Positions 8,346 to 20,491 of a DNA stretch of 20,714 bases are shown here, in pieces. Source of the stretch: Helicobacteraceae bacterium (GTDB lineage Bacteria; Campylobacterota; Campylobacteria; Campylobacterales; Sulfurimonadaceae); NCBI GenBank assembly GCA_015489055.1, contig WFMO01000011.1, forward strand, positions 1 to 20,714, given 5' to 3'. The notes beneath the pieces are model-generated. The model was given only the letters and a program-made list of their open reading frames with translations, did no database searches and had not been told where the DNA came from. The stretch's first letter is position 1. Every line of letters begins with the position of its first letter. The translations under genes and the position numbers were made by a program.

Positions 8346-8389
8346 TATATTAATAGTTTGGTTAACATAATGTAAATTCTATTGAATAA

Positions 8390-9011: not shown

Positions 9012-9036
9012 TTTTGTAAACGCCTTTGCTTATCAA

Positions 9037-9365
9037 GGTAGGTACAACTATAAGCCGGGTCTTGTTAAAAGTTGATATTAATCTATATTAATTTTCACAA
9101 ATTAATTAAAGCGAAACAATAGTAAATGTAAGACTCTAACCATCTGTTTCTTGCTACTAGGTTGGGTTTACAAGCTATCTATATTGCTATAGATACTGGC
9201 AGTCTCTTACACTGCCCTTTCACCTTTACCGCATAAACGGAAGTTTACTTTCTGTTGCACTTTCCCTCATATTGCTATGGCCATCTGTTAGATGGAACCC
9301 TGTCTTACTGTAGCCCGGACTTTCCTCTTGAACTTATCATTCAAGCATCAACTCGTTGTACCTTT
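9037..9365 (-). ncRNA. rnpB: RNase P RNA (M1 RNA)
   Basis: The catalytic RNA of RNase P, which trims tRNA 5' leaders. On the minus strand the universally conserved elements occur in order: GAGGAAAGTCCGGGCT (5' part, around 9314-9329), GAGGGAAAGTGCAACAGAAA (around 9251-9270), GGTAAAGGTGAAAGGG (around 9217-9232) and AGACCCGGCTTATAG (3' part, around 9049-9063). Helix P1 closes the molecule: AGGTACAAC (9355-9363) pairs perfectly with GTTGTACCT (9040-9048). The total of about 325 bases is a little short of the E. coli RNA, which is normal for Campylobacterota. A TATCAT -10 box lies seven bases before the inferred 5' end. The ends are estimated from P1 and may be off by a few bases. Confidence 0.96.
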
Positions 9366-9401: not shown

Positions 9402-9413
9402 GAACAATCGTTC
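9402..9413. promoter_or_regulatory. TetR-type operator copy 1
   Basis: GAACAATCGTTC, an inverted repeat with one central mismatch pair; it is the copy nearest the rnpB promoter. Confidence 0.6.
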
Positions 9414-9434
9414 ATTATAGATATAAGCATATAT

Positions 9435-9446
9435 TAACAATTGTTC
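9435..9446. promoter_or_regulatory. TetR-type operator copy 2
   Basis: TAACAATTGTTC, containing the perfect palindrome AACAATTGTT. A TATAAT (9450-9455) immediately follows and could be a -10 box for the regulator gene, so binding here would block it. Confidence 0.6.
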
Positions 9447-9466
9447 ATATATAATAATTTGTTGAT

Positions 9467-9478
9467 TAACAATCGTTC
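9467..9478. promoter_or_regulatory. TetR-type operator copy 3
   Basis: TAACAATCGTTC, same core as copy 1 with T at the first position; it is downstream of the candidate TATAAT at 9450-9455. Confidence 0.6.
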
Positions 9479-9498
9479 ATTACATATTGTTTTCTTAA

Positions 9499-9510
9499 GA
9501 ACAATTGTTC
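9499..9510. promoter_or_regulatory. TetR-type operator copy 4
   Basis: GAACAATTGTTC, a perfect 12-bp palindrome. It ends 27 bases before the regulator ATG and directly precedes TATAAA (9512-9517), a second possible -10 or an A/T-rich leader. Confidence 0.65.
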
Positions 9511-9537: not shown

Positions 9538-10152
9538 ATGCCACAAAACAGGGACAAAACAACCAAACAGAGGATTTTAGAATCTGCAATGAAATTATTT
9601 GCGGAGCTAGGATACAAAAATGCTTCGGTTAGAAAAATTGCGAAATCAGTCGGTATTAGAGAAAGTGCTTTGTATAATCATTTTAAAAATAAAGAAGATA
9701 TATTTTTGCATATTGCTTCAGAAATTTTTACTACTCCTTTTAATCATGATGAAAACATGTCAACTACTATTGCTAAATCCAATAACCCTAAAGCTTATTT
9801 ACATAAATTTGCAACAGAGTTTAAATTGATAACATTTGATAAAAATAAAGAGAATTTATTTAGGATCATGATGATTGAACTGTTTCAAAATAAAAATCTT
9901 AGAGATGGTTTTTTAAATGAATTTCATAATAAAAACATTAAAATCCTAGCACCAATCTTTTTTACTATGATGCAAGAAGGACATGTAAGATCATCAGATC
10001 CTATGGTAATGGCGCAAGAGTTTTTAGCTCCTCTTTTTTATCTTCGTTTACATGTAACACTATTAAGAATAGACTCTCAAGCAACAACAGCCCTGTCTTC
10101 ACAATTTGAAAAGCATGTTGATTTTTTTTGGGAAGGCATAAAAGTTGGATAA
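9538..10152 (+). CDS. TetR/AcrR family transcriptional regulator
   Basis: A 204-residue one-component repressor. Residues 8-55 are a TetR N-terminal helix-turn-helix (TKQRILESAMKLFAELGYKNASVRKIAKSVGIRESALYNHFKNKEDIF), with the recognition helix around SALYNHF. The rest (60-204) is a helical ligand/dimer domain of the usual size with no sign of the ligand. The ATG at 9538 has AAAAGGG seven bases upstream. Four phased palindromes upstream suggest autoregulation. Its 3' end overlaps the next gene by 8 bases, so it controls and is co-translated with the GT-C-like and GT2 genes. The family is certain; the ligand and direction of control are unknown. Confidence 0.93.
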   Translation: MPQNRDKTTKQRILESAMKLFAELGYKNASVRKIAKSVGIRESALYNHFKNKEDIFLHIASEIFTTPFNHDENMSTTIAKSNNPKAYLHKFATEFKLITFDKNKENLFRIMMIELFQNKNLRDGFLNEFHNKNIKILAPIFFTMMQEGHVRSSDPMVMAQEFLAPLFYLRLHVTLLRIDSQATTALSSQFEKHVDFFWEGIKVG

Positions 10153-11635
10153 TAAAAAAAGAGCTGTATTGATAGCAAGATATGAAATAAGCTATAAAAT
10201 ATGCATATATTTTATAGCGGCACTAACATATGCTTATTTTGCAGGTTTTAGTATGCAAGATGACGGCTTAAGAAATATCGCATTTGCATATCATCAAAAC
10301 ATCATGCACTCCTGGGGATATGTATATCCTCATTCATTATTTTTTTTACATTATGATCCATGGCATGTATGGGATAGTATATTGGCTTTTTATTTAAAAT
10401 TTTTCCCTTATGACAAAGTTCACATGGCTATTAATTTTACCGCCTTGTTTAGTCTAATGATATTACTTGAACTATTATTTAAAAAATTTTCGAAAATAAA
10501 CTTTCATACTCTGTCTGTGTTTTTTATATTGATGATTACTTCTATTGGTTGTAGTAGATATATTAACGTCAGACCTGACTTATTATCCGGCTTATTTTTA
10601 ATGCTTGCTTTACTGCTTGATAAACGTTTAATCTTTTTGTTTATTCTTACTATATTGTACTCTAGTAGTTACTATCTATTTTTTTTATATACAGGCTCGA
10701 TAGGTTTAGTGTATATGATATTAAAGAATTATAGAGCATTAATAGTGCTTGTCATCGGTTCTTTGATTGGATTATTTATTCATCTGTCATATGGAGGTAT
10801 AGATTTTCTTAAAACAGTATCATACTTACTGCATGACCAAACCTTAAGAGATGGTTTGATGGTTGGTGAAGGTCAGCCCTTATTTAGTTTTATACATATT
10901 TTTAATTATTATGTTCTTGTCGGTCTTTGTCTTACTGTTACTTTTACGCTGGCTTACAAATTTTATCGTTATTTTAAACAACAACCAATCGCCCTACTCC
11001 TTTTAATTATGTCACCGCTTTGGCTGGCTCAAATAAGATATTTTGAGATACTTCAACCACTATTTTTTCTATACCTATTATTAGAGAGTAAAAAAATCAT
11101 AGATTATATGCTCTCAAGACGAGTCAAATATGTTATTTATAGACTGACTCATATATTTAAATCGCTAACATTTAATCAACTTTTTATACTGCCTGCGCTA
11201 CTTTACACCATTGCAATTCTGGGCTATTCTATGAGTACGCATAATCATATAAAAACTCTGCGAAACAAGATATTTTATAAAGATAAAATCTTTAATAATA
11301 AAATCATACTATTTAATACTTTATCTTCTGATATCTATTACGCTTCATACCTAAATCCTACTATCAGATTTGTACCTAGCTGTAGTATAGGATGGTTTAG
11401 AGGCAGTAAGAAGATGAAAAAGATTTACGTACAGATGATGAAGCCACGCGGCATCACGCCAAAAGAGCTTAAGACGCTCCTTACATACGTGCATGCCAGT
11501 TATTTTTTTCAGGTGTTAAATAATGATAAACAAACACTATCATTTAAAAAATTAGACAAACTTGGCATCAAGCCCATTATGATAATAGATAATAAAATTT
11601 TATTTAAAAATATCAATCTTAAAGGAAAATTATGA
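10145..11635 (+). CDS. Polytopic membrane protein, probable GT-C-type glycosyltransferase
   Basis: A 496-residue integral membrane protein with roughly ten hydrophobic segments in the first 370 residues and a soluble C-terminal part (about 375-496). After the first membrane segment comes a short loop with an acidic pair, SMQDDGLRN (D39, D40), the position where GT-C glycosyltransferases carry their catalytic acidic motif. Together with the adjacent GT2 polyprenyl-phosphate transferase this suggests transfer of a sugar from a lipid carrier on the periplasmic side. The start is TTG at 10145, with GGAAGG about 8 bases upstream; the next in-frame Met would remove the first membrane segment. It overlaps the TetR gene by 8 bases and the GT2 gene by 4. 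Membrane topology is clear; enzymatic class is inference, and acceptor and sugar are unknown. Confidence 0.65.
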   Translation: MDNKKRAVLIARYEISYKICIYFIAALTYAYFAGFSMQDDGLRNIAFAYHQNIMHSWGYVYPHSLFFLHYDPWHVWDSILAFYLKFFPYDKVHMAINFTALFSLMILLELLFKKFSKINFHTLSVFFILMITSIGCSRYINVRPDLLSGLFLMLALLLDKRLIFLFILTILYSSSYYLFFLYTGSIGLVYMILKNYRALIVLVIGSLIGLFIHLSYGGIDFLKTVSYLLHDQTLRDGLMVGEGQPLFSFIHIFNYYVLVGLCLTVTFTLAYKFYRYFKQQPIALLLLIMSPLWLAQIRYFEILQPLFFLYLLLESKKIIDYMLSRRVKYVIYRLTHIFKSLTFNQLFILPALLYTIAILGYSMSTHNHIKTLRNKIFYKDKIFNNKIILFNTLSSDIYYASYLNPTIRFVPSCSIGWFRGSKKMKKIYVQMMKPRGITPKELKTLLTYVHASYFFQVLNNDKQTLSFKKLDKLGIKPIMIIDNKILFKNINLKGKL

Positions 11636-12552
11636 AAATTGCTGTATTAATACCGTGCTTTAATGAAGAAGCAACCATTGAAAAAGTTATTTTTGATTTT
11701 AAGCAAACTTTACCGCAAGCTAATATTTTTGTATACGATAATAACTCAACAGACAACAGCTATATAGTTGCCAAACAAAATGACGCAATTGTTAAAAAAG
11801 AGTACAAGCAGGGAAAGGGCCATGTTGTGCGTTCTATGTTTTTGGATATAGAGGCTGATATATATGTTATGGTTGATGCTGATGACACTTACCCGGCACA
11901 AGAAGTCTTAACATTAATCGATCCAATTGTAAGCTGTGAAGCTGACATGTGTGTTGGAGACAGACATTCCAATGGAAGCTATTTGCAACAAAATAAAAGG
12001 ATGTTTCATAATTTTGGTAACAACCTTGTTGCAAAACTAATCAATACTTTATATAAAGAAGATTTAAAAGATATTATGAGTGGATATCGTGCTTTTAATA
12101 GAGATTTTGTTAAACATTTCCCAATCCATAGTGGTGGTTTTGAGATAGAAACTGAAATGAGCATTCATGCGCTTGACAAACGTTTTAAAATAAAAGAAGT
12201 TCCCATCTCATACAAAGACAGAGAAGATGGAAGCGTATCAAAACTAAATACATATACTGACGGATACAAGATACTCAAAACTATATTTTGGTTATTTAAA
12301 GATTATAAACCGCTTATGTTTTTTTCAATAATAGCTGGAGTATTTTTTATACTTTCTTTAGCAGCAGGGGTACCCGTAATAGTTGAATTTGTGCGTACGC
12401 ATTATATCGCAAAAGTACCGTCTGCTATTTTAGCAGTCGGTCTTATGCTGATATCGATCATGACACTTTTTATAGGCTTTATCTTAGATACTGTTACAAA
12501 ACAGTATAAAGACAATTTCGAATTATTTAGATTAAACAATAAATATAAATAA
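11632..12552 (+). CDS. GT2 family polyprenyl-phosphate glycosyltransferase
   Basis: A 306-residue membrane-anchored transferase of the DPM1/GtrB/ArnC type, which moves a sugar from a nucleotide donor to polyprenyl phosphate on the cytoplasmic face. The GT-A fold starts VLIPCFNEEATIEKVI (6-20), the nucleotide-binding DNNSTDNS is at 36-43, the metal-binding DxD is VDADD (81-85), and the family block DIMSGYRAFNRDFV (147-160) with FEIETEMSIHA (170-180) follows. Two membrane helices end the protein (about 229-253 and 264-286). Its ATG overlaps the preceding stop (ATGA), indicating coupled translation with the GT-C-like gene, which could use its product. It ends 20 bases from the convergent pilin gene, with no clear terminator. 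Family assignment is strong; the sugar is unknown. Confidence 0.88.
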   Translation: MKIAVLIPCFNEEATIEKVIFDFKQTLPQANIFVYDNNSTDNSYIVAKQNDAIVKKEYKQGKGHVVRSMFLDIEADIYVMVDADDTYPAQEVLTLIDPIVSCEADMCVGDRHSNGSYLQQNKRMFHNFGNNLVAKLINTLYKEDLKDIMSGYRAFNRDFVKHFPIHSGGFEIETEMSIHALDKRFKIKEVPISYKDREDGSVSKLNTYTDGYKILKTIFWLFKDYKPLMFFSIIAGVFFILSLAAGVPVIVEFVRTHYIAKVPSAILAVGLMLISIMTLFIGFILDTVTKQYKDNFELFRLNNKYK

Positions 12553-12849: not shown

Positions 12850-14628
12850 TTAATTTTTACAATAAGTAAACCGCCTTGAAATCCATAATACATGTGAGAG
12901 CTTTCTGCACACATTTTTATAACAATCCTGAGTAATATTGATCCATACACCTCCTGTTTTTGTTTGTTGCTTTAAAGTCGATATAAATTTATGTCCATAT
13001 ATCCAGATACCTTGAATGGTTCCATTTATTGGTGTTGATCTTATAAATATCTTTTTAGTTGAAACCATGCAGTTATGCTGAATCAATTTAAGAGGTTTTT
13101 GCTTGACAACTTGCTTAACAACTTGAACACCCCTTTTTGCCTGCAGAATTATTTGGCTGTTTTTAGAAGTAGTGATATTGTTATCAGAGGAATTAATATC
13201 CTTTACCGATGTATTGTTAACAATAGCTACGTTACCAATTGTACCTTTTTTCGGAGTCAAGACGATTGTGTCTATTTTTTTACTGCTGATTTTATGTTTA
13301 TTTTGTATATCTAGAGTTTTTACAGTCGTTGTGTTATCATCACTGCCTAAAAGATTAAGTTTTTGACTGCTTTGTTCAAATCTGTGGTAGAAATGTGTGT
13401 CATTTACATCTGTTTTTTGATTGATGATTTGCGGTACCAGAAAAAATAGCAGATCATTTTCGCTATTGCTTGTTGAATCATTTCTAAACAATCTGCCTAT
13501 AAGTGGTAAATCACCTAAAAATGGGATTTTGGATTTTGTAACAGTGCTTTGTTTATGTAGACGTCCGCCAAGGGCTATAACCTGTCCTGATTTTGCAACA
13601 ATATTGGTGCTGATATGTTTGCTTAAAAAAGATGGTACCACAACACCGCTTCCAAGACTGACATCATGCGCTTTATCAGGATCAAATTCACTATCGCCTA
13701 TTTTTACATCTACATGTATATAATTGCTATGATCTAAAAATTTTGTTGTTAGTACAAGTTTTAGTCCATACTGCTTTTTTTTCAGCTGAATAGTAGGCGG
13801 ATACCCTGCTCCGGTCTGTGTTAAACCTATGGGAATATACACATCTCCTCCGACTTGAAAGCTTGCGTTTTTATCCTCTGTTGTTGTTAAAACAGTATCA
13901 TCCAATATTTTAGCGATTCCTTTTGTTTGCAAGAATTTCAGTGTACTGGTCAAACTATGTGTACCTGATCCCCCAATAGTTGAAAATTGACCTATATTAT
14001 TTAACAGCCAGCCGCTGAAAGTTGCTGATGTTGCTACTCCTGGGTTTAGTGATGCGCTTATATATTGATTAAAAAAACCAAGTCCGGTTATTCCTCCCAA
14101 TTGCTTTGCTTTTGTGTTGTTAATCTGAACTAAATACAGTTTTGTTCTCACCATTTTATTAATTTTAGTTGTAGTTGTAATATCCATAATTCGCTTTAAA
14201 TTAAATCCGGCATTTGCCAAAAGTTTATAAACGCGCTTCTTTTCATGCGGATTTGAAAAGATTCCTGATATAATGATTGAGCCATCGCCTATGCGGTGGA
14301 GACGAATCTTTGGCTGTATTGTATTAATCATACTCTGTATGAATGCAAGATTCTGATTTACATAGATTTGATAGTTGAGTATTTTTCCATTACTAAATAC
14401 AATAAGCATTGAGGTATTGCCACTTTTTTTACCATATAATTTTAATGTTGTAAAAGAACTATGCGGCATATTTAGTAAAGACACATTTATAATTCCTTTA
14501 CTTCCGATAATAATTTTAGATATGCCTCTATTTAGCTGTAATACCTTAAATTCGTTTTGAAACACCACTATATCTTTTGCCAAGATTATTATAGATGACA
14601 ATAGCATTGCTAATATAATTTTTTTCAT
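12850..14628 (-). CDS. cpaC: Tad pilus outer-membrane secretin with extra C-terminal domain
   Basis: Forms the outer-membrane channel for the Tad/Flp pilus. It has 592 residues: a signal peptide (about 1-17), an N-terminal pilus-secretin domain (about 20-95), a BON-like region (about 95-150), then the secretin domain, ending in the signature IPFLGDLPLIGRLFR (368-382) and LLFFLVPQII. Typical RcpA/CpaC proteins stop soon after this point. Here about 190 more residues follow: a Thr/Asn/Ser/Lys-rich linker (about 405-515) and a terminal domain (about 520-592) with IFIRSTP, GTIQGIWIYGHKF, GGVWINIT and WISRRF blocks that resemble a bacterial SH3 domain, plus four cysteines (520, 569, 574, 590). AAGAGGAAA precedes the ATG, 12 bases after the TadE-like gene. 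The secretin is certain; the SH3 resemblance is by eye. Confidence 0.92.
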   Translation of the reverse strand: MKKIILAMLLSSIIILAKDIVVFQNEFKVLQLNRGISKIIIGSKGIINVSLLNMPHSSFTTLKLYGKKSGNTSMLIVFSNGKILNYQIYVNQNLAFIQSMINTIQPKIRLHRIGDGSIIISGIFSNPHEKKRVYKLLANAGFNLKRIMDITTTTKINKMVRTKLYLVQINNTKAKQLGGITGLGFFNQYISASLNPGVATSATFSGWLLNNIGQFSTIGGSGTHSLTSTLKFLQTKGIAKILDDTVLTTTEDKNASFQVGGDVYIPIGLTQTGAGYPPTIQLKKKQYGLKLVLTTKFLDHSNYIHVDVKIGDSEFDPDKAHDVSLGSGVVVPSFLSKHISTNIVAKSGQVIALGGRLHKQSTVTKSKIPFLGDLPLIGRLFRNDSTSNSENDLLFFLVPQIINQKTDVNDTHFYHRFEQSSQKLNLLGSDDNTTTVKTLDIQNKHKISSKKIDTIVLTPKKGTIGNVAIVNNTSVKDINSSDNNITTSKNSQIILQAKRGVQVVKQVVKQKPLKLIQHNCMVSTKKIFIRSTPINGTIQGIWIYGHKFISTLKQQTKTGGVWINITQDCYKNVCRKLSHVLWISRRFTYCKN

Positions 14629-14640
14629 TTTTTTCCTCTT

Positions 14641-15072
14641 TTATTTACAGATATACTTAACTGAACTGTTTTGATCTTGATATGAATATGTAATCATATG
14701 TGCTTGCAGATTTTTATTGAAATATCTACTTTTATACCCATAAGATACTGTTACATCAATGGTATTGGGTGAAGGATTGGGTTTTTGAGATACAAGTTGA
14801 ATCGAAGTATGATTTGGGCATAGAGATGCAGCATTTTTGAATGCAGATTTATACATGCTGCTACCCTTTATATTTGTTATATTTTGCTCATTATCCAATG
14901 CGCGTGACATAATGTTTGATATTAATATTAGGTTATTATCAACTCTCATAACACCCCAATAATCTGTCAGTAAAATCACAATAAATGCTAATGTTGGAAT
15001 AACAACTAAAAGCATAGCAATAATTTGAGCAAATCCAAATCCGCTTCTCCATGCTCTAACCTTTTTATTCAT
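14641..15072 (-). CDS. TadE/TadF-like pseudopilin
   Basis: A 143-residue protein with one N-terminal membrane helix (about residues 11-36: GFGFAQIIAMLLVVIPTLAFIVILL) preceded by a basic leader (MNKKVRAWRS). This is the layout of TadE/TadF minor pseudopilins, which normally read G-x-x-x-VEFALVLP. The remaining 105 residues are presumed periplasmic, with cysteines at about 84 and near the C-terminus (YICK), which might pair. I start it at the ATG at 15072; a TTG two codons earlier (15078) is possible but has no better ribosome site. It overlaps the end of cpaB by 8 bases. Context between cpaB and the secretin supports a pilus role; the sequence divergence means TadE versus TadF cannot be decided. 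Confidence 0.65.
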   Translation of the reverse strand: MNKKVRAWRSGFGFAQIIAMLLVVIPTLAFIVILLTDYWGVMRVDNNLILISNIMSRALDNEQNITNIKGSSMYKSAFKNAASLCPNHTSIQLVSQKPNPSPNTIDVTVSYGYKSRYFNKNLQAHMITYSYQDQNSSVKYICK

Positions 15073-15967
15073 AAACAATTTTAACCGAATGATGATTTCG
15101 TTTCACATTATGCAAAGATCTATGTTTATGAAGATTTGTCAAGTGTAACATCAACATCTTTTTAGTGTGCTCAAACCGGCTATTAGACTTACCGTTGCAT
15201 TTCACAATCCATAACTGCCCATCATAGCCATTACTTGAATAATATCTCATACTATCAAGCGACTGTGTTTTATAATACAGCGCTAATAAATTAGCGATGC
15301 CGCTTGGAGAAAGCTCCATAATTACACTATCTGCAGTTACAACGGAGTGTGTTTTATCATGTAGATGAATTATAAATGTATTTACCAATTTATGTTTATA
15401 TAAAAAACCTTTAACCGCTACATGTAAAGCCACATATCTTGTTTTAAATATCAATTGACCATGTTGGTTATGTGACGGCGATACCGTAACTATATCAACC
15501 TTGTCTCCCGCATTCAATGGTGAGCTAAAATTTTTAAACATGTTTATAGGAACAGAAATTGTATCTACGCCTAAATGTTCAATTGTTTGGTTTGTCTTAT
15601 GTGTTGGTTTTACTACTGTTTTTATAGGTTGTGACACATCTTTTAAATGCTTTATCAAAGATAACTCTTTTTTCTCAATCGGCATAAACTTTAAGATATC
15701 CTCTTTTGCATATTTTCCTACAATCTCTGTATAAGGCAGAGGTTTAAATGAGATAAGATTAATCGGAAAATGTTTAGCTACGATATCTTCAGGCTTTATT
15801 TTAGATCCGAGTTTTATAAAATGTTTGGCAACAAACACATTTATCGTCGGTTGAATCATTTTATGCATATTGTTTTGTTTAAAGTAAAACCATAGCGTTG
15901 TAGATGATAGAAAAAATATCGCTGATAACATTATGGCTACTAAAACTCTTCTTTGTTGTTGTCTCAT
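15065..15967 (-). CDS. cpaB: CpaB/RcpC pilus assembly protein
   Basis: A periplasmic assembly factor of Tad pili, thought to act with the secretin. It has 300 residues: one membrane helix (about 8-29), then a SAF-like segment VFVAKHFIKLGSKIKPEDIVAKHFP (44-68), then the CpaB/RcpC domain with VDTISVPINMFKNFSSPLNAGDKVDIVTV (around 134-162), corresponding to the family's VSIPVD...GDRVDV block. The C-terminal tail is rich in His, Lys and Arg (about 255-295: HTKKMLMLHLTNLHKHRSLHNVKRNHH), which is unusual and could contact nucleic acid, cell wall or metal; this is speculation. It begins 10 bases after the tadC stop and overlaps the TadE-like gene. Family assignment is good. Confidence 0.85.
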   Translation of the reverse strand: MRQQQRRVLVAIMLSAIFFLSSTTLWFYFKQNNMHKMIQPTINVFVAKHFIKLGSKIKPEDIVAKHFPINLISFKPLPYTEIVGKYAKEDILKFMPIEKKELSLIKHLKDVSQPIKTVVKPTHKTNQTIEHLGVDTISVPINMFKNFSSPLNAGDKVDIVTVSPSHNQHGQLIFKTRYVALHVAVKGFLYKHKLVNTFIIHLHDKTHSVVTADSVIMELSPSGIANLLALYYKTQSLDSMRYYSSNGYDGQLWIVKCNGKSNSRFEHTKKMLMLHLTNLHKHRSLHNVKRNHHSVKIVYE

Positions 15968-15977
15968 TTATATCCTT

Positions 15978-16811
15978 TTATGTGATAGATTTCATAAGTA
16001 CGCCAGCAATCATAGGAAACATAATAATTGCAATAATAGCAGGCAGTATAAATATAAATACAGTCAAGGTAATACCTATATTCATTAGTGCCGCTTTTTT
16101 TTCAACACCCAAGATATCAGCTTCTTTTATCTCAATAGATTGATTTTCAAATATTTCTTTAACGCCTATGCCGGTATCTTCAGATAGTTTCATAAAACCA
16201 ACAATAGTTGCAATAGCTTCTGAAGATGTTCTGTTTGCTAGATTAGCATAAGCTATATCACTATTGTAGGTTATAAATTCTTGTTTAAAGCGGCGTGACT
16301 CTTCAAGCAGATCCTCTCCTATGACACCTGCACCTTCTGTTGTAACCGTATCAATAGCATTATGAAGACCGCCTCCCCCTTCAAGGATAATAATCAACAG
16401 ATCTATAAAGACCGCCAAGTCATTATCTATTTTTTTAACTCTTGCTTTTTTTTGTTCATCAACATAGAGCATAGGCATAAAAACAGCAATAGAGATAGAA
16501 ATAATAAACACCAATATTTCCATCAGCCATGACAGATGAAACAAAAAGCTAAGTAAAAAAACACTAACTCCCGCAATGCCGGCAAGATAAATTATCTGTT
16601 TGTACTCCTTCTTGGTGATACCGGCTTGAACCAATTTTAGCTTTAGTTTATCAGCTTTATTGGTAGTATCTGAAAAAATACCAAAACTGTTCGTTTGGAA
16701 AACAACTTTTATCCACTCTCTATGCTTACGCAAAAGATATAAAAAATAAAAACAAAAAGATAAAAAGATAACAAATGATACCATCATTACAATATTTAAC
16801 ATAAATATCAT
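15978..16811 (-). CDS. tadC: TadC inner-membrane platform protein
   Basis: One of the paired GspF-like platform proteins of the Tad pilus. It has 277 residues: an N-terminal membrane helix, a pair of central helices (about 80-110: YLAGIAGVSVFLLSFLF and LVFIISISIAVFMPML), then a cytoplasmic T2SSF domain with DLLIIILEGGGGLHNAIDTVTTEG and GFMKLSEDTGIGVKEIFENQS, and a final membrane segment (ITLTVFIFILPAIIAIIMFPMIAGV). The pattern of a GGGG-containing amphipathic helix followed by Glu/Asp-rich helices is the TadC type. The ATG overlaps the tadB stop by 4 bases, so the two partners are translationally coupled. Strong assignment. Confidence 0.88.
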   Translation of the reverse strand: MIFMLNIVMMVSFVIFLSFCFYFLYLLRKHREWIKVVFQTNSFGIFSDTTNKADKLKLKLVQAGITKKEYKQIIYLAGIAGVSVFLLSFLFHLSWLMEILVFIISISIAVFMPMLYVDEQKKARVKKIDNDLAVFIDLLIIILEGGGGLHNAIDTVTTEGAGVIGEDLLEESRRFKQEFITYNSDIAYANLANRTSSEAIATIVGFMKLSEDTGIGVKEIFENQSIEIKEADILGVEKKAALMNIGITLTVFIFILPAIIAIIMFPMIAGVLMKSIT

Positions 16812-17746
16812 TTTTCAATCCTAGTAATAATCCTATTTATAAACAGTCCGAATATCACCCACGCGATAATCCCTAAAAGTTCAAACCTGCCATAATGACT
16901 AGTCATATAAAAATGTTGGATTTTACCTTGAAAATTTGCATTTAAAGCAAAATATAAAAAGACAGCAATACCGGCTATGAGGTATGAGCCCACAGAACTC
17001 TCTCTAGTTACAACATCTATCTTTTCTTGCATTTTTTTTCTATGTCTTATGGTTAATTCTACTTTGTGGAGTGTTTGTGAAAATCTTCCGCCACTTGCCC
17101 TTCCAATTTTAACAGAAAGTGCAAATATCCTTAATTCTCGCGACTTGATATATTTATTCATATTATCAAAGGCATCTTCTTCTCCGATTGTATTTTTTTC
17201 ATGAAAAAATCTACTAAATACATTTTTAAGCATAACAGAGCTTGAAATATCTACAGCTTTTTGTAGTGATTGCTCAAAGCCGACACCATTTTTCATCATT
17301 TTCACCAAAACAGAAATAACAATCGCCAAAGCTCGATTAAACTGTATAGTTTTATATGATATGATTAATTCTATAATCCAATATGAAATACCGCTGCCAA
17401 CTAACAAGCCAAGAACAACCCCGATGTAAATATTTTTTAAAAATATAGAAAAAACTAATATACACAACGATAAAAAAACAATTTCTACAAAAAACAAAAC
17501 AACGTTGGAAATATTCTCTATGCCTAAAAGCATTTTTTTACTATTTAACTTGCTTAAAAACGATCTCTTTTGTGATACGTTTTTATAATCAAGCAATTCT
17601 GTGTCACTAGAATTACCTAGTGAAATCATCTGCTTAATATTTCGTAATTGATATATTTTTCTTAAATATCCAAATATTTGCAACACCAACACTGCCAAAG
17701 CGCTACTGCTGATAAAAAGCAAAATAACCTCGATAATAATCTTCAT
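16808..17746 (-). CDS. tadB: TadB inner-membrane platform protein
   Basis: The other GspF-like platform protein, which together with TadC anchors the TadA motor. It has 312 residues, with hydrophobic segments at the N-terminus, two central helices (about 80-125), a cytoplasmic T2SSF domain (about 145-255: FNRALAIVISVLVKMMKNGVGFEQSLQKAV and LSVKIGRASGGRFSQTLHKVE, with the conserved G-G-R-FSQ-L block) and two C-terminal membrane segments. It starts one base after the tadA stop and overlaps tadC by 4 bases. The order TadA-TadB-TadC is the conserved core of Tad clusters. Confidence 0.9.
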   Translation of the reverse strand: MKIIIEVILLFISSSALAVLVLQIFGYLRKIYQLRNIKQMISLGNSSDTELLDYKNVSQKRSFLSKLNSKKMLLGIENISNVVLFFVEIVFLSLCILVFSIFLKNIYIGVVLGLLVGSGISYWIIELIISYKTIQFNRALAIVISVLVKMMKNGVGFEQSLQKAVDISSSVMLKNVFSRFFHEKNTIGEEDAFDNMNKYIKSRELRIFALSVKIGRASGGRFSQTLHKVELTIRHRKKMQEKIDVVTRESSVGSYLIAGIAVFLYFALNANFQGKIQHFYMTSHYGRFELLGIIAWVIFGLFINRIITRIEK

Positions 17747-17747
17747 T

Positions 17748-19295
17748 TTATAAGTTTGACCATCTCTCTACAATATTTTTACCATCACTATATGAATTTT
17801 GAATAATCTCAGCCATATAATTTTCCTTCCATCCACACATTCTTGATGGAGGAAAATGAATCAACTCATCTATAACCATATCTTTGGTAACTACAAAGTC
17901 ATTATCAAAAATTCTACTATCCATATCGACACCATTATCTAGCATTTTTTTAATAGCTCTTGAAGATGCAGATACTGCTATAAATTCTCCATGCGAATTC
18001 ATAGGATTTATGCCCCCGCCTGATCTTTTAAATTCTAAAAGATCAAGCATTGCGACAACTCCGCTCTCTTCCACTCTTTTTTCAGGCTCAGAAATCTTTA
18101 CTATTCGTCTTGTGCCGTCTGGAAATCTAATTAACTGGACAATCAAATCGACAGCTGAAATAATTTGTGAGCGTACAAAACCCATATTGGCAGTCGGACG
18201 GGCTTCTAAAAACATATTTTCGATTCTAACAATTGCCTCTTTTGTATCATCAGAGTGTATTGTTGTCATAGAACCGGGATGACCTGTATTCATGGCGTTT
18301 AGCATCGTAACAATTTCAGGACCCCTGCATTCTCCTACAATGATACGCCTCGGACTTGACCTTAATGCGGTTTTAAGTAGTGCTTCGATACTGATTTCAC
18401 CAGCCCCCTCCTCATTTGGAGGACGAGCCTCAAATGATCTTATGGAATGACACGGCATCTGTGGTTTCATCTCCTTAGTATCTTCGATGGTTAATAATTG
18501 ATCACCTTCATCTATAAATCTTGTTAGAGAGTTTAAAAAGGTAGTTTTGCCGCTTGAAGTTCCGCCGGAGACAACAATGTTTAACTTACCTTTAATAGCA
18601 TTGATTAAAAAATATGCCATTTTAAGGTCCATCATACCGGAATCTATAAGTGATTCAAAAAGAAGTGGAATCTCACGAAACTTTCGCAATGTAACATAAG
18701 CTCCAGGTTTCCCATCTTTATTTAAATTTGCTGCAACCGGCGGTATCTGGACTTCCAATCTTGATCCATCTGTTAATTTCGCAGATACAATAGGATGTGA
18801 TTCATCAACTTTTCTGTTTGATGCAGAGAGCATCCTGTTTATTAGTTTTCTAAGTTCCTCCTCGCTTCTAAAGCAAAGTGGTGTGGAGATTGTTTGACCG
18901 GCATAAATAATATCAATATAATCTTTGGTATTAATCAAAATATCATTTAAATTATCTCCGGCAAGCTTTATCAAAGTGGTAATTGGTCCAAAATATAACA
19001 GATTATTAATCACAAATTCTGAGATCTCATGTTTTAAAACAGCTTTTGGAATGGAATACTCAGAGATATGTTTAACTACAACATCTCGAATCATTTGCTC
19101 AGTTAAAGTACCATTTATATTCAATTTATTAACAAAGTCATCATATATCAGACATGCCAATTTATAATAATTGTCATCTCGATACATAAGCGGAAAACAA
19201 ACCTGATTACAGGTTGAATCTGCAATAGCAGATGTTGATTTTTGCTCTATCTTTGTGGTATCTTTTAAAAATTTTATCTTATCCTTTAGAGCCAT
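17748..19295 (-). CDS. tadA: TadA/CpaF secretion ATPase
   Basis: The hexameric cytoplasmic ATPase that powers Tad pilus assembly. It has 515 residues. Walker A GGTSSGKTT is at 244-252, the Asp box TIEDTKE at 269-275, Walker B RRIIVGECRG at 316-325 and the His box GHPGSMTTIHSDD at 338-350; SPRRIIVGECRGPEIVTMLNAMNTGH is characteristic of the CpaF/TadA/VirB11 group. The N-terminal domain (about 40-210) includes VDESHPIVSAKLTDGSRLEVQIPPV, also typical. The C-terminus is somewhat extended, with a WKENYMAEIIQ tail. Its start overlaps the cpaE stop by 10 bases and tadB follows after one base. Certain assignment. Confidence 0.96.
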   Translation of the reverse strand: MALKDKIKFLKDTTKIEQKSTSAIADSTCNQVCFPLMYRDDNYYKLACLIYDDFVNKLNINGTLTEQMIRDVVVKHISEYSIPKAVLKHEISEFVINNLLYFGPITTLIKLAGDNLNDILINTKDYIDIIYAGQTISTPLCFRSEEELRKLINRMLSASNRKVDESHPIVSAKLTDGSRLEVQIPPVAANLNKDGKPGAYVTLRKFREIPLLFESLIDSGMMDLKMAYFLINAIKGKLNIVVSGGTSSGKTTFLNSLTRFIDEGDQLLTIEDTKEMKPQMPCHSIRSFEARPPNEEGAGEISIEALLKTALRSSPRRIIVGECRGPEIVTMLNAMNTGHPGSMTTIHSDDTKEAIVRIENMFLEARPTANMGFVRSQIISAVDLIVQLIRFPDGTRRIVKISEPEKRVEESGVVAMLDLLEFKRSGGGINPMNSHGEFIAVSASSRAIKKMLDNGVDMDSRIFDNDFVVTKDMVIDELIHFPPSRMCGWKENYMAEIIQNSYSDGKNIVERWSNL

Positions 19296-20491
19296 TGCTT
19301 AAGCCTTGATAAAAAATTTTCAGGTTTTTGTAGCACTGTTTTTTTATTATCTTCGAAATGTTGATGATGATAAAAAAACTGTCTTGTCAGCAATAATAGT
19401 TTTTGACTCAAAGGTGCATTTGGGTACAAATCATATACAAGCTTTGCCTCATTCCAACACTCTCTACAATGAGCAGCATCGTTTGGCAAGGAAAAATCTA
19501 TCTCAAATTGATGCTTTAATCCTCTTGAGAGTATTTTCTTAGCATCATCTTGGGTAATTGTTCCAAAAGAATCTACACGATTTGCTATGAGCCGCGTTTT
19601 ATTATACCATCCGCTTTTATCAATAATATCTATATATGTCTTTAAAATAGACATTGACGGGATGCTAAATTCGGTAATAACAAAAATTTCATCAGCCATT
19701 TCCTGAATATCGACTTCTAGCTCAACATCTTCAAAAACACCAATATCTATGATAATAAAATCAAATTTCTCTTTGATAAAATTGATAAAATTTAAAAATT
19801 TTTGAATATTTTCATGTTTCTCTAAATCTTCTCTGTCTGTATGTTTTTGAATCCCGGGCACAAGAAACAAATTATTTGATATTTTATATAAACCGCTACT
19901 AAATAACTCTTCAACTTCTAAATTTGGCATCATAGCAATATCTATGATATATTTTTCTGGATTTATAACGTTAAAGAAAAGATTTGATATTGCTTTTGTA
20001 TAGGCAAAATCCAAAAATAAAACATTTTTATCTTGATACTCATCTGCTAGACATCTAGCTGTATTCATGGCAATTGTTGTAGTACCAATCCCACCACTAA
20101 TACCTGTAAAAACAGAAATATTGCTTTTTCCTTTTCTTTGTTTTATAACAAGCCGTGAGTCAATAACTAGCCTATGTATATCCACAGCTTTACTGGGACT
20201 ACTATCATTAATATAAGCATCAACGCCTATTTTGCCTGCTTGTAGTGAAAACTCTATATCATCTTTACCTATTACTATTATATAGATATTGTTTTTAAAA
20301 TGCATAGATGTGAGTATTTGTAGCTCATTTATAGATTCAACTCTATAAATTAAAACTATGTCTCTATTGTTATTTGTGGCATAAAAGTTGATGAACTCGT
20401 TTATGTTGGCAAAATTTCTAACATCTTCAAATTCATCAACAAATTTATTATAACACTCCATATCTGCCTGTGAAACATATGCGACTATCAT
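19286..20491 (-). CDS. cpaE: TadZ/CpaE, ParA-like pilus localisation protein
   Basis: A MinD/ParA-superfamily protein that positions the Tad machinery, often at the pole. It has 401 residues: an N-terminal receiver-like domain (about 1-105) without an evident phosphoacceptor signature, then a MinD-like ATPase fold (about 123-400). The P-loop reads GISGGIGTTT (130-139): the signature lysine of the deviant Walker A (KGG) is replaced by serine and GK(T/S) by GTT, so nucleotide hydrolysis may be impaired, as described for several TadZ proteins. VLFLDFAYTKAISNLF (157-172) is the Walker A' region and FIIIDIG the Walker B. Its ATG shares one base with the stop of the upstream ORF (TAATG). Family assignment is good. 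Confidence 0.87.
   Translation of the reverse strand: MIVAYVSQADMECYNKFVDEFEDVRNFANINEFINFYATNNNRDIVLIYRVESINELQILTSMHFKNNIYIIVIGKDDIEFSLQAGKIGVDAYINDSSPSKAVDIHRLVIDSRLVIKQRKGKSNISVFTGISGGIGTTTIAMNTARCLADEYQDKNVLFLDFAYTKAISNLFFNVINPEKYIIDIAMMPNLEVEELFSSGLYKISNNLFLVPGIQKHTDREDLEKHENIQKFLNFINFIKEKFDFIIIDIGVFEDVELEVDIQEMADEIFVITEFSIPSMSILKTYIDIIDKSGWYNKTRLIANRVDSFGTITQDDAKKILSRGLKHQFEIDFSLPNDAAHCRECWNEAKLVYDLYPNAPLSQKLLLLTRQFFYHHQHFEDNKKTVLQKPENFLSRLKQWL

Follow-up and report, generated by a model that had tools for sequence, protein, structure and literature searches.

What does a TetR-family gene need with four evenly spaced palindromes? The question is raised by a locus in the window, the whole stretch of 20,714 bases that was analyzed, in which four 12-bp palindromes stand ahead of a TetR gene with start-to-start steps of 33, 32, and 32 bp.

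9402 to 9413, + strand: candidate operator 1, GAACAATCGTTC, kept in relatives
9435 to 9446, + strand: candidate operator 2, TAACAATTGTTC, the promoter-spacer site, directly 5' of the predicted -10
9450 to 9455, + strand: predicted -10 (TATAAT) of tetR, a consensus match only, with a weak -35
9467 to 9478, + strand: candidate operator 3, TAACAATCGTTC, 3' of the predicted start point
9499 to 9510, + strand: candidate operator 4, GAACAATTGTTC, 3' of the predicted start point
9538 to 10152, + strand: TetR-family regulator of 204 amino acids (PF00440, PF14246)

The positions and intervals of the four repeats agree with those in a preliminary description of this DNA, and their grouping exceeds chance. 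The pattern KAACNNNNGTTM had five matches in the window compared with 1.23 expected; four of the five lay within the array, and five matches were reached by only 1 of 100 shuffles. The repeats had been described as inverted. The sites are present, but sites 1 and 3 are imperfect palindromes, with C instead of T at one position. In the Sulfurimonadaceae (family f1) the symmetric consensus covers about 20 bp, ATATGAACANNTGTTCATAT. No second site pair was found elsewhere in the window's own assembly (83% complete), in which the loose motif (two or fewer mismatches) was rarer than its reversed control (62/63 versus 91/101).

Within the window, sites 1 and 3 are alike, as are sites 2 and 4, which would suit chance or the recent tandem duplication of an AT-rich unit. 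However, none of 2,000 first-order Markov windows held three or four sites within 120 bp (18 held two), and the spacers, as had been claimed, are unrelated to each other (mean pairwise identity of 0.40 versus 0.39 for shuffles). The retention of the array across six families, described below, refutes this explanation, which we regard as scarcely credible.

Orthologues of the regulator were detected in 37 of 80 relatives (E value of 4.7e-43 or better, with the next matches weaker than 1e-13). In an overlapping sample of 298 genomes from the order, 81 had one at 1e-25. Of the 37 orthologue-bearing genomes, 35 had a pair of sites with a step of 31 to 34 bp, versus 1 of the 43 others, which bears out the proposed tie between the sites and the adjacent regulator; the reversed control of the pair pattern was found in 1 of the 80 genomes. 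The two orthologue-bearing genomes that were missed by the pair pattern carry arrays with steps of 22 and 43 bp. Across 102 orthologous loci from six families of the order, at least two sites were found in 98, at least three in 93, and exactly four in 64. The middle four bases and the spacers are variable, and the outer half-sites and the steps are nearly invariant across loci. Thus, the loss of motif or spacing in relatives that keep the regulator, which the preliminary description had named as the result that would speak against it, was not the outcome in 98 of the 102 loci, and the array is old and common to six families of the order.

Four loci had fewer than two sites. G283 is the only one with an open regulator gene and no site, and it has no dif within 10 kb. 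G147 also has no site; the first 28 residues of its tetR relative are unmatched, and the gene lies away from the terminus, at 0.724 of the contig from dnaA. The tetR locus of G146 comes without upstream sequence, and a site pair adjoins difH on another contig of that genome. G248 has one site. In six genomes from two genera (L081, L082, L089, L206, L075, and L076) there is an extra operator-like site 137 to 139 bp upstream of the array, at about -272 from tetR. Contig 10 of the Sulfurimonadaceae metagenome-assembled genome (MAG) G034 (L255/L124) carries a second array with steps of 42, 42, and 42 bp about 0.5 kb from dif, and the genome's own array has 32-bp steps; this contig is probably a contaminating Sulfurovum-type contig.

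The steps between sites follow the helical repeat of DNA. Among steps shorter than 100 bp, 251 of 255 were 21 to 22, 31 to 33, or 42 to 43 bp, corresponding to two, three, or four helical turns. The remaining four (53, 63, 63, and 87 bp) were kept in the statistics, and the six steps of 137 to 139 bp were excluded. A degenerate site is visible between the sites of long steps in G111 and G294. Steps are mostly 32 bp in the Sulfurimonadaceae, chiefly 31 to 33 and 22 bp in Hydrogenimonas (f4), and 22 or 32 to 33 bp in the Nitratiruptor type (f18); in the Sulfurovum type (f6), 18 of 21 loci have steps of 42 to 43 bp and 16 of 21 have four sites. When each genus contributed a single value per class (33 values), the mean vector length R at a period of 10.5 bp was 0.95; it was 0.92 when the 31- to 33-bp class was left out (15 values). 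The formal P values (1e-13 and 3e-6, respectively) are too small because the values are still related by descent. In 80 named loci, many of which are the same contigs, 214 of 218 steps fell in the same classes. The same-face arrangement that had been proposed for the window is borne out by these changes of whole helical turns between lineages, which same-face binding with some reach between dimers would predict; a rigid dimer-dimer contact would instead fix a single distance.

The position of the array relative to the promoter was evaluated with a scan for the best consensus match. A TATAAT-like sequence lies 3' of one operator in many f1 loci. In all 27 scored loci of families f6 and f10, a promoter with good TTGACA/TATAAT-like elements has an operator in its spacer, some 20 bp ahead of the predicted start. 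In f1, the best match centers an operator at -21 in 17 of 41 scored loci, but for many f1, f4, and f18 loci the scan is unreliable and its answers differ within one genus. The outer sites differ. Their predicted placements are about -62, -105, and -147 for four-site f6 arrays with steps of 42 to 43 bp; about -53, -85, and +11 for 12 of those 17 f1 loci; and about -53, +11, and +43 for the window and two of its congeners. The placements are unreliable where the -35 is weak. The array thus slides relative to the promoter between lineages. Since simple occlusion does not need sliding outer sites, the array as a whole, beyond the promoter site, seems to be what is conserved.

It is very probable, judging from sequence and conservation, that the adjacent TetR protein binds these sites and represses its own gene. 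Binding of the palindromes by some other protein is very unlikely, because the arrays track the orthologue across the 80 genomes and include the promoter-spacer site of tetR itself. The preliminary description had also assigned to the array the autoregulation of an operon running from tetR into glycosyltransferase genes. The overlap with the promoter fits autoregulation, but the neighbors of tetR do not support the operon as the purpose of the array.

9035 to 9364, - strand: RNase P RNA (rnpB), divergent neighbor, between dif and the array
10145 to 11635, + strand: 496-amino-acid protein without a Pfam match, not in the conserved unit
11632 to 12552, + strand: GT2 glycosyltransferase (best NCBIfam match AglJ, below cut-off), not in the conserved unit

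The gene for the 496-amino-acid protein overlaps the end of tetR by 8 bases. Glycosyltransferase genes follow tetR in just 2 of 36 gene maps, those of this genome and G005, and the pair at 10145 to 12552, the 496-amino-acid protein included, was seen in these two maps only and is a lineage-specific gain near dif. The maps exclude open reading frames shorter than 70 amino acids and include some mechanical ones. Opposite-strand genes resembling the 2-oxoglutarate oxidoreductase (oor) operon face tetR in about two-thirds of the maps from f1; this name and those of the neighbors called suc, fumarase, malate dehydrogenase, and murA were assigned by eye. An envelope or lipid target, considered because of the neighbors in some genera, had no Pfam support.

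The regulator matches TetR_N (PF00440) with 56.4 bits against a cut-off of 24, and its C-terminal AefR-like match is barely above the cut-off; TetR_N and TetR_C_7 were its only Pfam matches. A search against the sequences of solved structures returned distant TetR-family matches only (best E value, 2.9e-16). Conservation was 0.71 in the C-terminal region versus 0.77 in the DNA-binding domain (19 sequences). Such high C-terminal conservation is not proof, but it would not be expected of a freely changing ligand pocket.

Potential targets beyond the arrays were sought as exact matches to ATGAACN4GTTCAT in the 80 genomes, which gave 55 matches outside known arrays, of which 40 were examined. A general regulon acting through single sites was rejected, with 31 of the 40 matches inside mechanical open reading frames. 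One of the others (G034 contig 10) is part of another array, three (L127, L137, and L138) are near or between other open reading frames, two (L112 and L113) lie between convergent genes, and three (L120, L121, and L122) are ahead of an ABC transporter operon. The palindrome between convergent genes (L112 position 2054 and L113 position 2039) is conserved between G004 and G006 except in its middle bases. The one ahead of the ABC operon is a single consensus palindrome about 80 bp before the first permease gene, in three genomes of one genus; this operon is a possible second target, and some ordinary regulation may therefore exist. Neither the gene maps nor the 40 of 55 single-site matches that were examined revealed a target gene shared between families. 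Within 200-kb terminus stretches of four genomes, all 10 sites above the threshold belonged to arrays, at a threshold so strict that 10 of 15 array sites passed and 5 fell below.

The feature that is newly recognized here, and that was absent from the preliminary description, is the position of the array-bearing tetR at the replication terminus. The genes dnaA, murA, oorA, and rnpB were located in 26 genomes with long contigs, seven of which consist of two or three contigs, so that the length of the main contig was used. G147, which lacks an array, was excluded. In all 25 array-bearing genomes, tetR was located at 0.448 to 0.557 of the contig from dnaA, with a median distance from the half-way point of 0.020 and a maximum of 0.057. 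The corresponding medians for murA, oorA, and rnpB were 0.047 to 0.050 and the maxima 0.294, 0.319, and 0.385, but these genes are not random controls because each was chosen as a neighbor of tetR in some family. In f1 genomes, tetR is at most 6.2 kb from oor, with rnpB adjoining, and 466 to 701 kb from murA; in f4, f6, and f18 it is 2.6 to 33 kb from murA and 37 to 716 kb from oor. The neighbors therefore changed and the terminus position stayed. In f18 and f4, the oor and rnpB genes have stayed fairly close to the terminus.

In 200-kb stretches from four genomes, one per family, the maximum of the GC skew was separated from tetR by 2 kb (f1), 6 kb (f6), 4 kb (f18), and 16 kb (f4). Averaged over the named loci within 10 kb of tetR, the skew was between about -0.05 and 0 on the upstream side and between about -0.05 and -0.15 on the downstream side; there is a step, but the sign does not change cleanly. 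The skew peak and difH of Nitratiruptor are 74 kb apart (PMC2731167, in excerpt).

The second landmark of the terminus, the site of chromosome dimer resolution, is also close to the array in the window.

8357 to 8386, - strand: XerCD-type dif, flanked by the citrate synthase gene and a small open reading frame

The 28-mer at 8360 to 8387 shares 27 of its 28 positions with the dif site published for Sulfurimonas denitrificans (PMC2731167, in excerpt). Neither this site nor the divergent rnpB figured in the preliminary description. Matches to dif were confirmed with plain sequence patterns. A dif or difH site was 0.16 to 10.5 kb from tetR in all 25 array-bearing genomes with long contigs (2.1 kb or less in 23) and, within the available flanking DNA, upstream of tetR in 74 of the 102 loci: 13 of 15 in f4, 15 of 16 in f18, 16 of 21 in f6, 4 of 7 in f10, 26 of 42 in f1, and 0 of 1 in f3. 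The linkage holds for both XerCD-type dif and XerH-type difH. The difH site was 106 to 267 bp before tetR in 28 of 31 f4 and f18 loci, and the three misses had only 0, 84, and 224 bp of upstream sequence.

In five further f1 genomes, dif shares a contig with tetR at a distance of 4.8 to 32.8 kb; distances in f1 range from 0.2 to 33 kb. The sites are 33 kb apart in G007 (contig 57) and 10.5 kb apart in G017 (contig 1), compared with 1 to 2 kb in several relatives, and these long gaps are probable insertions or rearrangements at the terminus. Among 30 named loci with 9.9 kb of upstream sequence, mostly from Sulfurimonas-like MAGs, 11 have neither dif nor difH within it, and 10 of these 11 have the array. 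Linkage to dif in the Sulfurimonadaceae is therefore strong but not absolute. An argument from the joint absence of array and dif in G283 was dropped, because the ten array-bearing loci are also without dif within 9.9 kb upstream.

The proximity of difH raises the possibility that the protein is an accessory factor or regulator of Xer recombination, with the array positioning the dif or difH synapsis or, in difH lineages, controlling a divergent xerH-like gene. Apart from the short distance between difH and tetR, this would accord with a gene for a Xer-like recombinase (350 to 356 amino acids) that lies beyond difH in G051 and G065, as published for Nitratiruptor, in which xerH is 52 bp from difH (PMC2731167, in excerpt). 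However, in Sulfurimonas and Sulfurovum, xerC and xerD are far from dif (same source), and difH is found as well in families whose genomes lack this TetR. G270 has difH and no orthologue at 1e-25. The distances argue against it as well. In accessory complexes of the cer/psi type, the spacing and the phase between accessory and recombination sites are fixed. The distance from difH to the array is 69 to 72 bp in 9 of 13 f4 loci but 52 to 111 bp in f18, so that a phase relation between the two was rejected, and dif in f1 is 0.2 to 33 kb away. Thus, it seems unlikely that assistance to Xer recombination accounts for the array.

Our preferred reading is that a TetR-family protein would occupy three or four palindromic operators, whose whole-turn spacing would place the dimers on one face of the DNA and may allow cooperative loading. 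One operator would lie between the -35 and -10 of its own promoter, through which the protein would repress itself. The DNA-bound complex would itself probably be the working part, a nucleoprotein structure at the terminus with a gene autoregulated as tus and rtp are. This is suggested by the retention of sites and phase while the array slides relative to the promoter, by the lack of a conserved other target among the gene maps and matches examined, and by a locus that stays at the terminus, usually near dif or difH. The complex might serve as a fork barrier, as a terminus organizer, or as a help for Xer recombination. An autorepressor that forms a same-face complex at the terminus, organized like tus and rtp without homology to them, is the best reading we can offer, and we give it an even chance.

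The main competitor is a TetR autorepressor of the ordinary kind whose phased operator is unusually large; it would respond to a ligand and act on its own gene and a few lineage-specific ones, with dif a neighbor by ancestry. The overlap with the promoter is equally at home in such a scheme, as are the single site before the ABC operon in one genus, the extra distal operator in six genomes, the glycosyltransferase genes behind tetR in two, and the 11 named loci without a nearby dif; neighboring loci can, moreover, remain linked by descent. It explains less well why sites 40 to 150 bp upstream or 10 to 45 bp downstream of the start are kept, neither of which simple repression needs, why dif stayed near in the 25 long-contig genomes as other neighbors changed, and why no target gene was conserved between families. 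We consider it a serious but lesser possibility. A function of the protein at the terminus has, in our judgment, about one chance in two, with the remainder falling mainly to an ordinary autorepressor kept near dif by descent.

The tus gene of Escherichia coli and the rtp gene of Bacillus subtilis lie at the terminus. Each is autoregulated via a ter site in its own promoter (PMC10331603, in excerpt). The present gene resembles them in its location, and its predicted promoter contains candidate sites for its product. Unlike Tus and RTP, its product belongs to the TetR family, with no Tus or RTP match in Pfam; its operators are symmetric; and no set of several polar sites flanking the terminus was found, with none beyond the array above the strict threshold in the 200 kb of four genomes. 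For these reasons a likeness to Tus and RTP is claimed and not membership. LacI on an array of 22 lacO copies blocks a fork in vitro (PMC10331603, in excerpt). It is conceivable, and we suggest it tentatively, that the Sulfurimonas, Sulfurovum, Hydrogenimonas, and Nitratiruptor types have a third, independently evolved autoregulated terminus system, in which a TetR-family protein loads on a phased array near dif or difH; such a system would stop forks, hold the terminus, or assist dimer resolution. For these lineages no terminator protein was found in searches of the open-license PMC literature. Nor did these searches bring up a paper that we recognized as describing a comparable array or a TetR linked to dif.

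Among TetR-family repressors, Tn10 TetR and QacR place two dimers on each operator region. HlyIIR likewise places two dimers on its operator region (PMC1828608, in excerpt). The present regulator shares with these three the family, by its TetR_N domain, and palindromic operators at a promoter, predicted to be its own. It differs from them in its three or four operators, in steps of two, three, or four turns that are kept across families, in the lack of a conserved target gene among those examined, and in its terminus position. SlmA and RefZ also belong to the TetR family; they recognize short palindromes and have roles in division or in the positioning of the chromosome. The regulator falls far short of the cut-offs for both, with 25 bits against the SlmA model (NF007015; cut-off, 120) and 49.8 bits against the RefZ model (NF037937; cut-off, 180), and its sites, unlike theirs, are gathered in a single array at the terminus. 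Helicobacter pylori is a member of the Campylobacterota. At its arsR promoter the repressor Fur oligomerizes on several operators and compacts the promoter DNA (PMC5007355, in excerpt). Fur differs from the present regulator in family and in its control by metal, and the excerpted description mentions no link to the terminus.

The retention of a terminus-near array in several families of sulfur- and vent-dwelling bacteria hints that the protein acts on the terminus beyond gene switching. If the array works there, it is a candidate means by which replication is ended or the terminus ordered in these bacteria, and it would mark a route from a common repressor fold to a chromosome protein. Even as an autorepressor only, it would be a defined, testable case of phased multisite repression. 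The whole-turn jumps in step between families, with most arrays at three or four sites, form a natural record of a same-face rule.

Downstream of the glycosyltransferase gene, positions 12850 to 20491 of the window (- strand) hold a Tad-type pilus cluster with secretin, SAF domain, T2SSF, T2SSE, and AAA genes.
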